DNA from: Thiohalomonas denitrificans
GTDB lineage: Bacteria; Pseudomonadota; Gammaproteobacteria; Thiohalomonadales; Thiohalomonadaceae
NCBI RefSeq assembly: GCF_016841685.1
Contig: NZ_JAENYR010000027.1
Span: 8,310 to 42,108 of the forward strand
Direction: 5' to 3'
DNA: 33,799 nucleotides
Part shown: in pieces, positions 22,388 to 28,488 of the stretch
Layout of the letters: each line of letters begins with the position of its first letter
How positions within the stretch are numbered: position 1 is the stretch's first letter
Translations under genes and position numbers: made by a program
The notes under the pieces: generated by a model
Seen by the model: only the letters and a program-made list of their open reading frames with translations
What the model was told of the DNA's origin: nothing
The model's database searches: none

Positions 22388-23464
22388 TCAGGGTGAGATG
22401 GCGACCTTCAGGACCCCGTCCCGCTGGTTTCCGAACAGGTCATAAGCCGCTTCGATATCGTCAAGCTTGAAACGGTGCGTCACCAGTGGCTCGAGGTCGA
22501 CGCGCCCACCCTCTATGACATTCATCATTCGGCGCATGCGCTCCTTGCCGCCCGGACAGAGTGAGGTAATGATCTGGTTGTCACCCAGTCCGGCGTGAAA
22601 GGCGTCGAGCGGAATGGATAGATCCTTCGAGTAGACGCCGAGGCTCGATAGCGTGCCGCCCGGCTTGAGAACGCGAAGGGCCGCCTCGAAGGTCGACTGC
22701 ATTCCAAGCGCCTCGATGGAGACGTCGACCCCGCGTCCATCGGTGATTCGGCGAATCTCATCAACCGGGTCGACTTGCTTGAAGTCGATAACGTGGTCCG
22801 CGCCCATCTTTTGCGCCATTTCCTTGCGCTCGGGCACCGATTCGACCGCGATGATGGTGCTGGCACCGGAGAGTCTGGCGCCGGCCGTCGCGCAGAGACC
22901 AATCGGCCCCTGGGCGAATATGGCCACGATATCGCCGATACGGACCCCTCCCCGCTCCGCTCCGACAAACCCCGTCGACATGATGTCGGGGCACATGAGC
23001 ACCTGTTCATCGGTGAGCCCCTCCGGCACCGGCGCCAGATTGGCCATCGCATCCGGCACGACCACGTATTCGGCCTGACAGCCGTCGATGGTGTTGCCGA
23101 AACGCCAACCACCCAGAGGCTTCAGGCCGTGGGCACCGGCACCGCCATCCTGGGAGTGCAGGCCGTCCAGGGACGCGTTGGAGTAACCGGTCGGGCAGAT
23201 GGCACCGGCGATAACCCGCTGGCCCTCCCGGTAGCCGGCGACGTTGGTCCCCAGTTTCTCGATAACGCCCACCGGTTCGTGACCAATCGTCAGGCCCTTT
23301 TCAACCGGATACTCGCCCTTGAGGATATGGATATCGGTCCCGCAGATGGTAGTGGTGGTGACTCGAACCAGTGCGTCATTCGGTCCGGGGGCCGGTACGG
23401 GTTTATCCTCGAGAACGATTCGCCCCGGCTCTACAAATACGGCTGCCTTCATTTTTTCCGTCAT
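22388..23464 (-). CDS. Zinc-dependent alcohol dehydrogenase (MDR superfamily)
   Basis: A 358-residue medium-chain dehydrogenase. Catalytic zinc ligands are C41, H62-E63 and D160 (CPDIMSTGF), the Cys-His-Glu-Asp arrangement of secondary-alcohol dehydrogenases. The structural-zinc loop at 90-118 has lost its four cysteines and is glycine/histidine rich instead. The coenzyme fold begins AIFAQGPIGLCATAGARLSG (181-200), ending the second strand at VES. It likely oxidises a small alcohol or reduces an aldehyde/ketone in the cytoplasm. GGGAG eight bases before the ATG supports the start. It is last in the operon behind the TetR-type operator at 24828, which fits a detoxification role (inference). 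Confidence 0.87.
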   Translation of the reverse strand: MTEKMKAAVFVEPGRIVLEDKPVPAPGPNDALVRVTTTTICGTDIHILKGEYPVEKGLTIGHEPVGVIEKLGTNVAGYREGQRVIAGAICPTGYSNASLDGLHSQDGGAGAHGLKPLGGWRFGNTIDGCQAEYVVVPDAMANLAPVPEGLTDEQVLMCPDIMSTGFVGAERGGVRIGDIVAIFAQGPIGLCATAGARLSGASTIIAVESVPERKEMAQKMGADHVIDFKQVDPVDEIRRITDGRGVDVSIEALGMQSTFEAALRVLKPGGTLSSLGVYSKDLSIPLDAFHAGLGDNQIITSLCPGGKERMRRMMNVIEGGRVDLEPLVTHRFKLDDIEAAYDLFGNQRDGVLKVAISP

Positions 23465-23533
23465 GGCCTGTCTCCCTGGCCGTGGAGTATCCCGAAATCA
23501 ATAGAACAGAACAGCGCCCGACGCATCGGTAAT

Positions 23534-23974
23534 CTATACGAAAAAATCCCCGGACCAGCGATCTTTCCGGTAATCAAGTAGCAGTTCCCGGGCACGCATT
23601 CGCTTCGCCCCGGTGGAGACCAGTTCACGCCGGGCCGGGTAGTCGGCGGCAAAGGCAATCGGGTCACATCGGTCGGATTCGACGGTGGTCAGGTACACGA
23701 GAAAGCGATCGTCCACCCTAAGGGCATCGGGGGGAGCCGCGGCCGGGAACAGTGTCCGCTTCTTCACCACGCAGGCGAAGTAGAGCTGCATCTCCACCGC
23801 CAGGGGATCCGTTCGCGAACGAAGCGCCCGCTCCGCCCGCGAGGTCCAGCGGATGGTGAGTTCACCGCCGCGAAGCGGGACCTTCCGGATGTGTCGGTAG
23901 GGATTGAGGACGCGCTCCATTGCGGTCAGCGGGTTCCAGCCCTCGATGGAGAAATAGCTACCATGCAGATTCAT
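23534..23974 (-). CDS. Conserved hypothetical protein, third gene of the TetR-controlled operon
   Basis: A 146-residue soluble protein with no signal or membrane segment, not matched to a known family. Visible features are a compact alpha/beta N-terminus (HGSYFSIEGWNPLTAMERVL), a basic patch RWTSRAERALRSR, a hydrophobic strand VEMQLYFACVVKKRTLFP, and VDDRFLVYLTTVESDRCD towards the C-terminus. Two cysteines are present (in FACVV and in DRCD). GGGAG before the ATG supports the start. It lies 28 bases after the 73-residue gene and 69 bases before the dehydrogenase gene, so cotranscription is likely. Confidence 0.65.
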   Translation of the reverse strand: MNLHGSYFSIEGWNPLTAMERVLNPYRHIRKVPLRGGELTIRWTSRAERALRSRTDPLAVEMQLYFACVVKKRTLFPAAAPPDALRVDDRFLVYLTTVESDRCDPIAFAADYPARRELVSTGAKRMRARELLLDYRKDRWSGDFFV

Positions 23975-24002
23975 CGTCAGCTCCCGTCAGTTTGGCGAAG
24001 GA

Positions 24003-24224
24003 TTACAGATCGATCACCCGCGCGACGACTCCGGCGTCCGCAGCCATTCGTACCAGCTCATGGGGGGCCGTTCGGTTTTCGTCATAACCGATGAAGATCA
24101 GGTGCGGCTTCATGGAGGCAGTGGCCGCCTCACAGGTTACCCCTTCCCCCTGCAGGCGAGCACAGAACCGCTCGCGCTCGCCCTCACTCAGTGCCTTGTC
24201 CAGGTGCAGCATCGTTTTACGCAT
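24003..24224 (-). CDS. Small hypothetical protein (ferredoxin-like fold predicted)
   Basis: A 73-residue protein, MRKTMLHLDKALSEGERERF and so on. The strand-helix-strand pattern (MLHLDK, then SEGERERFCARLQGEG, VTCEAATAS, HLIFIGYDEN, then a helix, VVARVIDL) resembles a heavy-metal-associated/ferredoxin-like unit but lacks a CxxC metal site; two single cysteines are present. The ATG at 24224 is preferred over the in-frame TTG at 24245 because GAGGAG precedes it; the TTG would overlap the stop of the AhpD-like gene. It is sandwiched in the TetR-controlled operon. Function unknown; binding or sensing of a reactive compound would be speculation. Confidence 0.62.
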   Translation of the reverse strand: MRKTMLHLDKALSEGERERFCARLQGEGVTCEAATASMKPHLIFIGYDENRTAPHELVRMAADAGVVARVIDL

Positions 24225-24241
24225 GGTGGAATTCTCCTCGG

Positions 24242-24778
24242 TCAAAAATCGATATCAATCTGCAGTGTGTCGAGAAACCGGTTGAATCCGATGAATAGCT
24301 CCATTACTCCCAATGCCTCGACCAGTTCGCCATCACTCCAGCCCGCATGGTGCACCGCCTCAAGCTCCTCGTCGGTCACCTGCATCGGCGAACGGTTGCT
24401 CTTTCGGACCAAGCGAAGCAGAGCCAGCTCCCGTTCGTCGAATCCTTCGGGAAGCCCCTCCCCGTTCTGATTGACCAGCGATTCAACCGTACTGTCAGTG
24501 GTGCCGAGCGCCTTTAGTGCCCGGCCATGGGCTGCAACGCAATAGGCGCAACCATTGTCACCGGAAACCGAGAGGGCGATCGCCTCTTTCAGGCGGCGGT
24601 CCAGTCTTCCCTCCCCCATGACACACTGAACCTTCTCCCAGTTGGCACGCAACAGGGGCGGATGGTGGGCATAGGCACGGAACAGATTGGGTACCCGGCC
24701 GAAAGCTGCCTCTATCGCTTGCAGGGTCTCAGCGGCTTCGGGCACTTTGCTTTCGACGCTGAGGTCAATTCGAGCCAT
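24242..24778 (-). CDS. AhpD-like alkylhydroperoxidase / carboxymuconolactone decarboxylase family protein
   Basis: A 178-residue protein with the full AhpD active-site set: E65, C77, C80 and H84, spaced exactly as in mycobacterial AhpD (E, +12 C, +3 C, +4 H), within KEAIALSVSGDNGCAYCVAAH. The second half (GFDERELALLRLVRKSNRSP, then DEELEAVHHAGWSDGELVEAL) matches the peroxidase-related CMD family. It probably reduces peroxides or related electrophiles through the CxxC pair. AAGGAG seven bases before the ATG makes this a well-expressed first gene of the four-gene operon. A 19-base TetR-type operator lies 50 bases upstream. Confidence 0.9.
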   Translation of the reverse strand: MARIDLSVESKVPEAAETLQAIEAAFGRVPNLFRAYAHHPPLLRANWEKVQCVMGEGRLDRRLKEAIALSVSGDNGCAYCVAAHGRALKALGTTDSTVESLVNQNGEGLPEGFDERELALLRLVRKSNRSPMQVTDEELEAVHHAGWSDGELVEALGVMELFIGFNRFLDTLQIDIDF

Positions 24779-24827
24779 TGATGTTCTCCTTATCTCTCCA
24801 GCTTTAGCGTTTTCGGCAGACGTTCTA

Positions 24828-24846
24828 TAGTCGACCGGTCGGTCTA
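24828..24846. promoter_or_regulatory. Putative TetR operator in front of the AhpD-ADH operon
   Basis: The near-palindrome TAGTCGACCGGTCGGTCTA is centred on GACCGGTC. On the minus strand it reads TAGACCGACCGGTCGACTA and overlaps a -10-like TATAGA, so a bound repressor would block the promoter of the AhpD-like operon. The core ACCGACYGGTC recurs at 25540-25550 ahead of the tetR gene itself. TAGACC/GGTCTA ends are also known in NemR-type boxes. Confidence 0.7.
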
Positions 24847-24857
24847 GTCTGCGGGCT

Positions 24858-24898
24858 AAAAAAAAGACGCTGCCGCACCGCCTCCCGAACGTCTACTT
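24858..24898 (-). terminator. Possible terminator after tetR
   Basis: Directly after the tetR stop on the minus strand, an AGACG...CGTCT pairing around a GC-rich loop is followed by a run of eight T. The stem is short, so this is tentative. Confidence 0.4.
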
Positions 24899-24899
24899 C

Positions 24900-25523
24900 T
24901 CAGTTGGCGCATGCCGACTGCTCCCGGCATGCCGTTACCAATGCGAGCGCCGAGCGCCCCAGCGTCACGACGGCCTCCGGATCGTTACGTGTCTTGGCCA
25001 TCAGCAGGGCCCCCTCCATATAGGCAAACACCGCCCGGGCGGCAGATGGCGGGTCCACACGGGATGCCGAGCCATCGGCCCGAGCCGCCTCCAGGGCCTT
25101 CTCGATATGCCGTTCGGCGGCCCGGAACAGAGCATCCAGCCGGTCGCGCAAGACATCGTCCTGTGTACTCATCTCCAGGGCCAGGTTGCCGAAGGGACAG
25201 CCGAGCACATGGCCGGCAACCCGCGCCTGGGCACGCTGAAATTCGGCGCTGTACACGAAAAAACGTTCGATTCGCTCAAGCGGCGGCACATCGTCGGCGA
25301 ACGCCGGATCAAACACCTGCGCCTGAAGGCGCTGCCAAAGCACATCGATAGCCGCCAGGGCCAGCTCCCGCTTCGAGCGAAAGAAATGGTAGAAGCTGCC
25401 CTTCTGGACCTTGGCGCGTACGCAGATTTCCTGCACGCCCACCGAACCGAAACTGCGGGCATAGATCAGGTCGATGGCGGCCTCGACGAGCCGATCTTTG
25501 GTATTGGTGGTTGTCCTTCCCAT
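24900..25523 (-). CDS. TetR family transcriptional regulator
   Basis: A 207-residue repressor. The N-terminal helix-turn-helix domain (residues 1-60) reads TKDRLVEAAIDLIYARSFGS, then VGVQEICVRAKVQKGSFYHF and FRSKRELALAAID, which is the group of TetR proteins with a KGSFYH(Y/F)F recognition helix that includes NemR. The ligand domain contains two cysteines that could sense electrophiles (the one in GHVLGCPFG, and CREQSACAN at the C-terminus). The ATG at 25523 is chosen because it begins the conserved domain; the longer frame would read through its own operator at 25540-25550. It likely represses itself and the adjacent AhpD-like to ADH operon. Confidence 0.88.
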   Translation of the reverse strand: MGRTTTNTKDRLVEAAIDLIYARSFGSVGVQEICVRAKVQKGSFYHFFRSKRELALAAIDVLWQRLQAQVFDPAFADDVPPLERIERFFVYSAEFQRAQARVAGHVLGCPFGNLALEMSTQDDVLRDRLDALFRAAERHIEKALEAARADGSASRVDPPSAARAVFAYMEGALLMAKTRNDPEAVVTLGRSALALVTACREQSACAN

Positions 25524-25539
25524 GACCACCACTCTAATT

Positions 25540-25550
25540 GACCAGTCGGT
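25540..25550. promoter_or_regulatory. Putative TetR operator in front of tetR
   Basis: GACCAGTCGGT matches the core of the operator at 24833-24843 (GACCGGTCGGT) at 10 of 11 positions and lies 16 bases upstream of the tetR ATG. This suggests autoregulation. Confidence 0.6.
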
Positions 25551-25578: not shown

Positions 25579-26541
25579 TCAGACCTGCGGTTCACCGGCC
25601 TTGAAGTCATCAGGCCTCGCCTGCCTCAACACTTCCGACAACCCTGCGACGGCACCGCCGATACTGGAGAGTTCAGCGGGAATGATCATGGAATTGTTGG
25701 TTTTGGCGAGCTTGCTGAAGGCACCCACATACTGCTCGGCGATGCGCAGGCTGACGGCATCCTTGCCACTGGGTTGCTGAATGGCTTGAGCGATCCGGCT
25801 CAATCCCCCGGCTGTGGCTTCCGCGATCAGCTGAATCTCCTGGGCGCGGCCTTCGGCCTCGTTGATCTGCTTTAGCTTGGTGGCCTCCGAGAGATTGATG
25901 ACTTCCTGCTTCTGGCCTTCGGAGACGTTGATCATGGCCTGGCGTTCGCCTTCCGATCGGGCAATCGCCGCCCGGCGCTCGCGCTCGGCTCTCATCTGCT
26001 GCTCCAGTGCCCCCTTGATACTCTCCGGCAGCTCGATATCGGAGATCTCATAACGCAGCACCTTGATGCCCCAGGGTGAAGCAGCCTCGTCCAAAGCCCG
26101 GACCACCTCTTCGTTGATCTTCGCCCGCTCTTCGAAGGTTTTGTCCAGATCGGTTTGGCCAATGACCGAACGCATGGTGGTCTGCGCCAACTGGGTGGCG
26201 GCGTTGCGATAGTGGTCCACACCGTAACTGGCCTTATGCGCATCAATGACCTGAATGTACAAAATGGCATCGATGCCCACCTGAATGTTGTCCCGGGTGA
26301 CGCAGGCTTGCTGGGGCACATCGATCACTTCTTCTTTCAGCGTGTGTTGGTAGGCCACCTTGTCGATGAAGGGGATCAGGATATGAAACCCGGAATCGAG
26401 GGTCCGGGAGTATTTACCCAGACGCTCCACTACGAAATTCGAACGCTGGGGCACAATCCGTGCAGTCTTGAGGATGATTATGACAACGGCCAGTGCGAAG
26501 CCGATTGCCAACAGGGAGCCAAAGTCGAGAAACCTTTCCAT
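25579..26541 (-). CDS. qmcA: SPFH/stomatin family protein QmcA
   Basis: A 320-residue membrane-anchored protein: one N-terminal hydrophobic segment (about 8-26, LLAIGFALAVVIIILK), an SPFH/band 7 domain (about 30-190, with QRSNFVVERLGKYSRTLDSG and TLKEEVIDVPQQACVTRDN), and a long Ala/Glu-rich coiled coil (about 190-260) before a C-terminal tail. QmcA-type proteins assemble large rings with NfeD partners and influence membrane protease (FtsH/HflKC) function. AAGGAT before the ATG supports the start. The NfeD gene lies upstream on the same strand but is separated by about 300 bases of repeat element. Confidence 0.93.
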   Translation of the reverse strand: MERFLDFGSLLAIGFALAVVIIILKTARIVPQRSNFVVERLGKYSRTLDSGFHILIPFIDKVAYQHTLKEEVIDVPQQACVTRDNIQVGIDAILYIQVIDAHKASYGVDHYRNAATQLAQTTMRSVIGQTDLDKTFEERAKINEEVVRALDEAASPWGIKVLRYEISDIELPESIKGALEQQMRAERERRAAIARSEGERQAMINVSEGQKQEVINLSEATKLKQINEAEGRAQEIQLIAEATAGGLSRIAQAIQQPSGKDAVSLRIAEQYVGAFSKLAKTNNSMIIPAELSSIGGAVAGLSEVLRQARPDDFKAGEPQV

Positions 26542-26564
26542 CAGATATCCTTTTTATCAGTTTT

Positions 26565-26818
26565 TAATTACTCGCCCCTTTGGAAAAGATCTCACCGCAG
26601 AGGCGCAGAGTACGCAGAGAGGATCCAATAACGCCCTGGGTAATTACTCGTAGCTCCGTGCTGAAGCATGGAACGGTAGATGATGCTCTTACCAAGCGCA
26701 TAATGTCTCAACATTATGCGCCTCGTAATTCGGCACGTGCATGATGCCTGTTTTCAGGTCTTCTCTGCGTACTTTGCGCCTCTGCGGTGAAAATGTCTTG
26801 AAGGGGTGAGCAGTTACG
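26565..26818. repeat. Palindromic element between nfeD and qmcA, 9-base periodic arms (CGCAGAG type)
   Basis: Arms 26592-26620 and 26762-26790 are inverted copies at 28 of 29 positions, and weaker similarity extends outward on both sides to about 26565 and 26818. Each arm holds three CGC(A)(R)AG words at 8-9 base spacing (CGCAGAGG, CGCAGAGTA, CGCAGAGAG). The centre contains an independent perfect 11-bp hairpin, GCGCATAATGT (26696-26721). The ten-base word TAATTACTCG occurs directly repeated at 26565 and 26641. There is no gene in the 26542-26839 gap. Confidence 0.85.
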
Positions 26819-26839
26819 TCGTTTTTTGAAATTGCGGAA

Positions 26840-27295
26840 TTACTGCTTGGTTTTGGGCCGTTGTGATGATACGGTCAGGCGAATACCTTCATTGGACACC
26901 ACCCAGGCGACATCACCCGCTTTCAGTTTTTCCTCGGAGACGGCATCCCAGGCAACGCCGTTCAGCACAACACGGCCCGCCCCGTGGACGAAGTCATCCT
27001 GCACGGTTACCCGTTCACCAATATCCCTTTGAAACCGGCTCCCGGCTTCACCCTGATCAGTACTGAACCCACCGAACCAGCCCTTCATTTGCCTTCGCGC
27101 CAGCACCAGACTGATGATACTCACCAGCCCGAACACCGTCAGTTGCGAGGCCAGCGACTCAATCCACCCCAGTTGCAGTAACACTCCGACGGTAATCGCC
27201 CCGATGCCGATGAAAACGGCGATGATACTGGTAGCGAGCAGTTCGGACAGTATCAGAACAATGCCGGCGATGATCCAGACAGTGGCGGCACTCAT
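26840..27295 (-). CDS. NfeD family protein
   Basis: A 151-residue short NfeD protein. Two or three membrane segments (about 5-22, 24-42, 48-66) are followed by a soluble OB-fold-like C-terminal domain (about 85-145) with the typical IGERVTVQDDF, GAGRVVLNGVAWDAVSEE and GDVAWVVSNEGIRLTV strands. NfeD proteins pair with SPFH proteins such as QmcA, the next gene on this strand. The genes probably form one transcript that was later parted by the palindromic element 26565-26818. AAGGGG lies ten bases before the ATG. Confidence 0.92.
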   Translation of the reverse strand: MSAATVWIIAGIVLILSELLATSIIAVFIGIGAITVGVLLQLGWIESLASQLTVFGLVSIISLVLARRQMKGWFGGFSTDQGEAGSRFQRDIGERVTVQDDFVHGAGRVVLNGVAWDAVSEEKLKAGDVAWVVSNEGIRLTVSSQRPKTKQ

Positions 27296-27332: not shown

Positions 27333-28388
27333 CTAAGCTGGCACTGTGGGCGATTCTACTCTTTCGGTCCTGGTCCGCACTAATTCGATCTGCGACCAAT
27401 CACCCGCCTCTGCTTCCAGTAGCCGCCTTAGTGCCTTGCTTTTTCGACGATAGTCCCGGGCATCGGCGTCCCAACGCTGCCTGGCCGATGCGTGCAGTGG
27501 GCCGCTGATCTGGCGGATGGCTTCGGTGCGCATCAGGTAGAGCCCTTTGCGTTCGTTGTGAAGCTTGTCGAGAGGGTCCGGTACCAGGGAGTCGTGCAGG
27601 TGGGGTTCGAATTGCAATCCAAAGGCGGTGGCTTCGTGAAGCATCCAGTCCCCGGCGCAGTGGCTCAACCCCGGCTCCTTGTAGCCGCCGCCGATGTCGG
27701 AGTGGGTGCCGGCGAACCAGACCTGCCGGATATCGAGGCCGGGCCTTTGATCCCAGAGGGTGGGTTCAAAGTCCCCGCGATTTTCATCGATGGCCACCGC
27801 GTGCCGGGCATGCCGGATGATCTTGCTGGGCTCGGTATCGTGAAACAGATAGTCGCGGTCTCCCAGCGTGCCCCAAAACGGCAGTGGCACGCCAAAGGAG
27901 CCCACCGTGTCGAATACACCGACAAACTCGATGGGGGTGATATCCGCTACCGCGTAATTCTGCCTGAATTTGACGCACTTCGGGGCATTAGGGCTGCTGT
28001 TTCTGGCGCGGCTTCGGTAGAGGCGGTAGGCGGCAGGTATCTGCCTGGCGTATTGGCGCCGGAGCAGGCCGCAGTTACGAATGAATCCCGCCAGTGAACG
28101 GACGGTGTAGGCGCCGCGACTGAACCCGAAAAAGTAGAGCCGATCCCCGGGTTCATAGTTGTGTACGAGGAACCGGTAACAATCCATGATGTTCTTGTCG
28201 ACACCCCCGCCCGTGAGTCGCCCGGCAATCGGCCTTCGGTCGGTACCGACGCCCCAGTCATAGAACGTCACCTGGTTGACGTCGTCGGCATTTGGCTTGA
28301 CCGCTCTGGCCATCAGCAGTGGATTGGTTGCACCTCCATGTACCGGTGAGTTCCAGGTTCCGTCGGCGAATAGGGCTATCCGTTTCAT
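27333..28388 (-). CDS. DUF2235 alpha/beta hydrolase-like protein
   Basis: A 351-residue protein of the DUF2235 family (related to Tle1-type phospholipase domains). It opens with KRIALFADGTWN, has the nucleophile elbow GFSRGA at 88-93 (S90), and retains GVFDTVGSFGVP and the VWFAGTHSDIGGGY segment carrying the Asp and His candidates for a serine-hydrolase triad. No signal peptide, VgrG/PAAR gene or immunity-like partner is nearby, so a type VI effector role is not supported; an intracellular hydrolase is more likely. The ATG at 28388 begins the conserved domain; a TTG at 28421 with a close AGGAG is an alternative that would add 11 residues. Confidence 0.82.
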   Translation of the reverse strand: MKRIALFADGTWNSPVHGGATNPLLMARAVKPNADDVNQVTFYDWGVGTDRRPIAGRLTGGGVDKNIMDCYRFLVHNYEPGDRLYFFGFSRGAYTVRSLAGFIRNCGLLRRQYARQIPAAYRLYRSRARNSSPNAPKCVKFRQNYAVADITPIEFVGVFDTVGSFGVPLPFWGTLGDRDYLFHDTEPSKIIRHARHAVAIDENRGDFEPTLWDQRPGLDIRQVWFAGTHSDIGGGYKEPGLSHCAGDWMLHEATAFGLQFEPHLHDSLVPDPLDKLHNERKGLYLMRTEAIRQISGPLHASARQRWDADARDYRRKSKALRRLLEAEAGDWSQIELVRTRTERVESPTVPA

Positions 28389-28488
28389 CTGTCGATTGTC
28401 CCTGCGAAAATTCCGGATCAAATCTCCTGTTGACTAAACTATCCCAAACGGCTGGTGTCGGGTCAATTCATGATGCGGAGGGCTATTC

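Follow-up and report, generated by a model that had tools for sequence, protein, structure and literature searches.

NemR, a TetR-family repressor of Escherichia coli, senses hypochlorous acid (HOCl) through Cys106 (PMC7464077). AltR of Pantoea ananatis is a NemR-like TetR regulator that requires Cys100 and controls a thiosulfinate-tolerance cluster (PMC13178969), and this alt cluster contains a gene of the CMD family (PMC5817063). Pseudomonas aeruginosa responds to HOCl and HOSCN by inducing RclX, an AhpD-like protein (PMC7950407). The present study concerns a locus of Thiohalomonas denitrificans within a stretch of 33,799 nucleotides (contig NZ_JAENYR010000027.1, positions 8,310 to 42,108; hereafter, the window), in which a tetR gene precedes a run of four genes encoding an AhpD-like protein (CMD), two small proteins (P73 and P146), and a zinc dehydrogenase (ADH). 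We hold with moderate confidence that this locus is an autoregulated thiol-stress operon, in which the TetR regulator acts through operators of the form ACCGACCGGTC on its own promoter and on that of the CMD-P73-P146-ADH run and is switched through its cysteines.

Regulator, operators, and promoters

An earlier reading made from the letters alone (hereafter, the sequence-only reading) had placed five genes and two motif copies at this locus, and all of them were recovered at the same positions on the minus strand. The features are as follows.

24900..25523, minus strand: TetR-family regulator with TetR_N and TetR_C_13 domains, 207 residues, Cys34 and Cys109 invariant
24242..24778, minus strand: CMD, AhpD-like peroxidase-related protein (TIGR01926-like), 178 residues, CAYCVAAH motif
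24003..24224, minus strand: P73, small protein of predicted heavy-metal-associated (HMA) fold without CxxC, 73 residues
23534..23974, minus strand: P146, unnamed family, invariant Cys68 and Cys103, predicted HesB/IscA-like fold, 146 residues
22388..23464, minus strand: ADH, zinc medium-chain dehydrogenase of the secondary-alcohol (isopropanol) type, 358 residues
24828..24846, minus strand: predicted operator TAGACCGACCGGTCGACTA before the CMD run, with an exact copy of the core at 24833-24843
25540..25550, minus strand: predicted operator core ACCGACTGGTC of the tetR promoter, flanked by TTGAAT and TAGAGT-like hexamers
24866..24879, minus strand: possible tetR terminator, a 5-bp stem followed by T8; weak, with 2.6 such sites obtained from shuffles

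The gaps inside the run are 17, 28, and 69 nucleotides, and a 121-nucleotide gap, which contains the second operator, separates the run from the co-oriented tetR gene upstream. The tetR start was put at 25523, not at 25610 where the longer open reading frame begins, because the operator falls between both and because the protein of the sister species (G001) likewise begins with MGR. The possible terminator weakly suggests two transcription units. Searches of the window proteins with Pfam and NCBIfam named the outer genes and left P73 and P146 blank.

The 11-mer ACCGACYGGTC alone is not rare, because it occurs six times in the genome compared to seven times for a reversed control pattern, and a comparably similar 11-mer pair arose in two such gaps in 21 of 400 shuffles (5%). 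Both counts accord with the view that the two palindromes, which are the only exact copies in the window, are alike by chance and reflect no common regulation. This view is, however, very improbable in light of conservation. The sister species keeps both sites, TGTACCGACCGGTCTACTAG before a CMD relic and TGAACCGACCGGTCAACTAA before tetR (L022), within surrounding DNA that has diverged. The orthologous tetR genes compared came from 35 loci in the class and in Thiobacillus-type genomes. Of these loci, 28 carry an operator approximately 30 bp before the start codon, with the consensus ACTTGACCGACCGGTCAACT and a fully conserved central ACCG and GGTC, and in 18 the site is repeated between tetR and the gene that follows. 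Furthermore, the 17-mer TDGACCGACCGGTCWAC yielded 13 matches in 10 of 229 genomes compared to a single control match (p ~1e-11 for the genomes), with all 13 at an independently identified tetR ortholog, and the 12/14 core match reached by both window sites was reached by none of 849 unrelated upstream regions. Sister conservation, the ortholog operators, the restriction of the 17-mer, and the upstream background thus place the operator above chance, strongly suggesting that the window TetR and this site form a matched regulator-operator pair. We predict with high confidence, from sequence comparison, that the site is the operator, that tetR is autoregulated, and that the CMD-P73-P146-ADH run is under the same control, and, equally, that the regulator represents a TetR subfamily with ACCGACCGGTC operators on both promoters. 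The autoregulated unit with one operator per promoter that the sequence-only reading had proposed is supported, as is its assignment to a NemR-like recognition type, the operator being of the ACC-N4-GGT form.

A by-eye reading of all four promoters of the window and the sister puts the palindrome inside the spacer, downstream of a -35 hexamer that is TTGAA(C/T)-like or weaker and upstream of a TA-rich -10 hexamer; a promoter scan with a 9/12 rule passed neither the tetR nor the CMD promoter, which leaves the hexamers as visual assignments. A TetR dimer seated in the 17-bp spacer would likely block RNA polymerase. Loci L205-L208 of Thiobacillus-type genomes carry a further operator-like palindrome, TCTTGACCGRACGGTCATCT, in the gap after tetR near the tusA start, so that a locus may have as many as three sites.

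Ortholog targets and candidate signals

The window regulator passed the Pfam cut-offs for both TetR_N (45.3 bits; cut-off 24) and TetR_C_13 (55.6 bits; cut-off 27), and NemR was among its three best solved relatives. A comparison of 37 regulators showed two cysteines to be invariant in all of them, one in the DNA-binding domain (Cys34) and one in a Gly-Cys motif (Cys109). In the alignment, Cys109 falls on NemR Cys106, at the Gly-Cys position, which bears out the ligand-domain cysteine anticipated from the sequence. Cys109 is common to paralogs, and Cys34 was missing from all 11 paralogs compared. We consider it moderately probable that sensing proceeds through cysteine chemistry.

The gene directly after the tetR ortholog was tusA and/or dsrE2 in 18 of the 35 loci, an AhpD-like CMD gene in 10, and an AhpC/TSA-type gene in two, with no recognised target gene in that position in five. 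These names derive from Pfam TusA and DrsE_2 and from NCBIfam DsrE2 and TIGR01926, with NCBIfam scores below the cut-offs both for DsrE2 (200.5 compared to 210) and for the CMDs. Thiobacillus thioparus DSM 505 (L208) has a tetR-tusA-dsrE2 arrangement. In sulfur oxidisers, sulfane sulfur is moved via TusA and DsrE2. The host of the window carries dsrA and soxB and is probably a sulfur oxidiser; its genome holds two full-length dsrA genes (G000:C108:4960-6174 and C160:45572-46774), and its dsrE2 genes adjoin neither a tetR ortholog nor the operator. The literature searched on TetR with TusA or DsrE2 names no TetR regulator of these genes.

The CMD protein of the window bears the AhpD motif GCAYCVAAH, with the CxxCxxxH pattern present as CAYCVAAH in the translation. 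It scored 49.0 bits against Pfam CMD, above the cut-off of 23, and 80.3 bits against TIGR01926, just under the cut-off of 81.8, and its relatives in the PDB are labelled AhpD or peroxidase-related. The sequence-only reading had called it an AhpD-like CxxC reductase; the CxxC was found, and 'reductase' is an assumption. Its view of the neighbouring genes as redox types was supported. Because the orthologs are predicted to control tusA-dsrE2, AhpD-like CMD, or AhpC/TSA genes, reactive sulfur or thiol oxidants are likelier inducers than aldehydes or alcohols. Of the inducers first proposed (electrophile, peroxide, aldehyde, or alcohol), aldehydes and alcohols become the less likely ones. That reactive sulfur is the true signal is a tentative suggestion.

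The dehydrogenase would take the leading role if the regulator were an AcuR-type or alcohol/aldehyde-type catabolic switch responding to a small organic ligand, with ADH as its chief effector and helper roles for the remaining genes. AcuR (NF051457) was indeed the best NCBIfam model of the regulator, at 83.7 bits and far under the equivalog cut-off of 247. The run ends in an isopropanol-type enzyme closest to NADP-dependent secondary-alcohol dehydrogenases, its ratio of nonsynonymous to synonymous substitution rates (dN/dS) of 0.07 indicates strong constraint, and the sister without CMD retains it. However, this dehydrogenase was a recognised neighbour in none of the 35 orthologs, where tusA/dsrE2, CMD, or AhpC/TSA genes stand instead, and the regulator has two invariant cysteines, making a catabolic switch unlikely.

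Small proteins and recurrence of the gene set

Compared to the sister species, dN/dS was 0.07 for ADH, 0.34 for P146, 0.33 for P73, and 0.14 for TetR, indicating purifying selection on all four; the synonymous distance of TetR was 0.85, several-fold above that of neighbouring genes. On these values, P73 and P146 are real genes. In the sister (L022:6748-6939), CMD is an internal-deletion relic in which the start MARIDL is fused to the end ELFIGFN.

The complete tetR-CMD-P73-P146-ADH order was found only in this genus, tetR-CMD is the conserved pair, and the broad P73 family has a scattered context, mostly as single (orphan) genes. These three observations would fit a functional regulon of tetR-CMD only, with P73, P146, and ADH as passengers on the transcript in this genus. 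We regard this as quite improbable, since the sister has lost CMD yet has kept the two operators as well as P73, P146, and ADH, these genes under purifying selection, and since P73-P146 pairs recur in G053 and G006, making three lineages with this genus. Of 80 named loci, 12 also have both CMD and TetR within 3.5 kb of P146; these 12 are not independent and represent approximately four lineages. The expected number is approximately 0.2 (38 Pfam CMD genes in 36 such genomes; 537 kb searched), a low estimate because Pfam CMD misses some TIGR01926-type genes. TetR and CMD each recurred in six of 50 P146 lineages and were the top specific neighbours, alongside generic kinases and ABC ATPases. Conservation of the gene order elsewhere, which the sequence-only reading had set as a test, thus holds in part: tetR-CMD recurs across many genera, P73-P146 in three lineages, and P146-CMD-TetR in several, while the full order is confined to this genus.

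The TetRs linked to P146 in Thiobacillus and relatives were rejected as orthologs of the window regulator, the true ortholog lying at another place in these genomes, beside tusA-dsrE2. They are paralogs without Cys34, and the P146-CMD-TetR association was therefore assembled more than once. The promoters of these paralogs contain a related palindrome, ATACCAACCGGTAT. In G053 (L028:5673-8118), P73-P146 stands beside an apparently decayed tetR-tusA-dsrE2 unit, a possible link between both target types.

Of the 369 genomes of the class, 59 contained the P73 family. The profile of this family matched ATP7B (1.3e-13) and CopZ-type chains, indicating homology to the HMA fold, and Pfam HMA touched six of 27 members (best E 0.0022). 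Among these 27 aligned members, none had a CxxC metal site, and His7 and His41 were invariant.

One scan recovered at least 188 relatives of P146, which fall into a long and a short form; sulfur oxidisers such as Thioalkalivibrio, Thiohalophilus, Thiobacillus, and Sedimenticola account for many of them. No credible match to P146 was found in Pfam, NCBIfam, or PDB searches, and none of 55 members had a Pfam hit. Cys68 and Cys103 were the only invariant cysteines, and the three-cysteine set of A-type carriers (Cys35 and a C-terminal CGC) was absent. In two AlphaFold2 models of the family (mean predicted local distance difference test scores 88 and 89), SufA/IscA-type structures were the best matches, with Z of 4.5 and 5.4 to SufA, both below 8; for the short form, the first nine matches were all of the HesB/IscA fold, with a Foldseek probability of 0.82. 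A profile comparison with IscA (Pfam Fe-S_biosyn members) detected no relation (hhalign probability 1%), and homology by sequence profile was dropped on this account. The models thus weakly suggest a HesB/IscA likeness as a fold-level lead, not as family membership. At L032, L037, L067, and L079, short-form P146 genes lie near DUF692-type (BufB-like) genes, with a Cys-rich small protein in some, which hints at metal handling. The sequence-only reading had taken P73 and P146 as two new components; their families are unnamed, and they belong to wider families that are not peculiar to this locus.

For the thiol-stress operon that we favour, the following course is proposed. A thiol-reactive species (sulfane sulfur or polysulfide, an HOCl/HOSCN-type oxidant, or another electrophile) would modify Cys109, and perhaps Cys34, whereupon the modified repressor would leave the DNA and the operon would be induced. 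CMD may then act as an AhpD-like thiol peroxidase or reductase. P146, with two invariant cysteines and an A-type-carrier-like fold, and P73, with an HMA fold without CxxC, would probably carry or protect sulfur or metal, and the dehydrogenase may clear a carbonyl or alcohol by-product or be a later addition. More broadly, it is possible, if doubtful, that the TetR subfamily uses its invariant Cys34 and Cys109 to sense reactive sulfur (sulfane sulfur or polysulfide) and, in sulfur oxidisers, governs either cytoplasmic sulfur carriers (TusA-DsrE2) or AhpD-like proteins, with P146 as a new two-cysteine carrier of A-type-carrier fold in the same response. Several points weigh against the thiol-stress operon. 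The Gly-Cys motif is widespread in the TetR_C_13 domain family, and Cys34 could be structural rather than sensory. Outside the genus, P73, P146, and ADH are unlinked to the TetR ortholog except in G053, and the sister without an intact CMD keeps both operators and the remaining three genes. Furthermore, only fold and conserved residues underlie the functions given to P73 and P146.

Two neighbouring genes may be mentioned. Both this genus and Thiobacillus-type genomes have a Band-7/SPFH gene (window 25579-27295; L066, L086, L103, L109) no more than a few kb from P146, which may be coincidence. Window positions 27333-28391 encode a lone protein with a type VI secretion system Tle1-like phospholipase domain (Pfam, 255 bits).

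Comparison with known systems

The NemR-nemA-gloA system of E. coli resembles the window locus in having a TetR repressor on its own promoter, a Gly-Cys cysteine, and detoxification genes; the window subfamily differs in possessing Cys34, in lacking NemA and GloA, and in its CMD or TusA/DsrE2 targets. AltR likewise is a NemR-like TetR with inverted-repeat self-regulation, an essential cysteine, and a CMD-family gene in the alt cluster, whereas its operator (CAATCTAC-N6-GTAGATTG) is unlike ACCGACCGGTC, and the DsbA-like, thioredoxin-like, OsmC, and glutathione reductase genes of alt are absent from the window run (PMC13178969, PMC5817063). DitR, the TetR regulator of mfsBC in Stenotrophomonas, needs its two cysteines for diamide sensing and has one operator between -35 and -10, but it shows low identity to NemR, transporter targets, and a CATAC-N5-GTATG operator (PMC9342713). 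The A-type Fe-S carriers (SufA, IscA, DsrR) were the only solved folds matching P146 above background, though P146 has neither their C-terminal CGC motif nor a profile relation to them. The P73 family profile matches the HMA domains of CopZ and other HMA-domain proteins, though P73 has two invariant histidines in place of CxxC.

The kind of system is thus known, whereas the subfamily, its operator, its tusA-dsrE2/CMD targets, and both small-protein families are undescribed in the literature searched. The locus gives a first functional context to two unnamed families, P146 with its invariant cysteines and P73 without CxxC, and the sharply defined 17-bp operator, the single-locus targets, and the two invariant cysteines together make it a clean, testable candidate switch.

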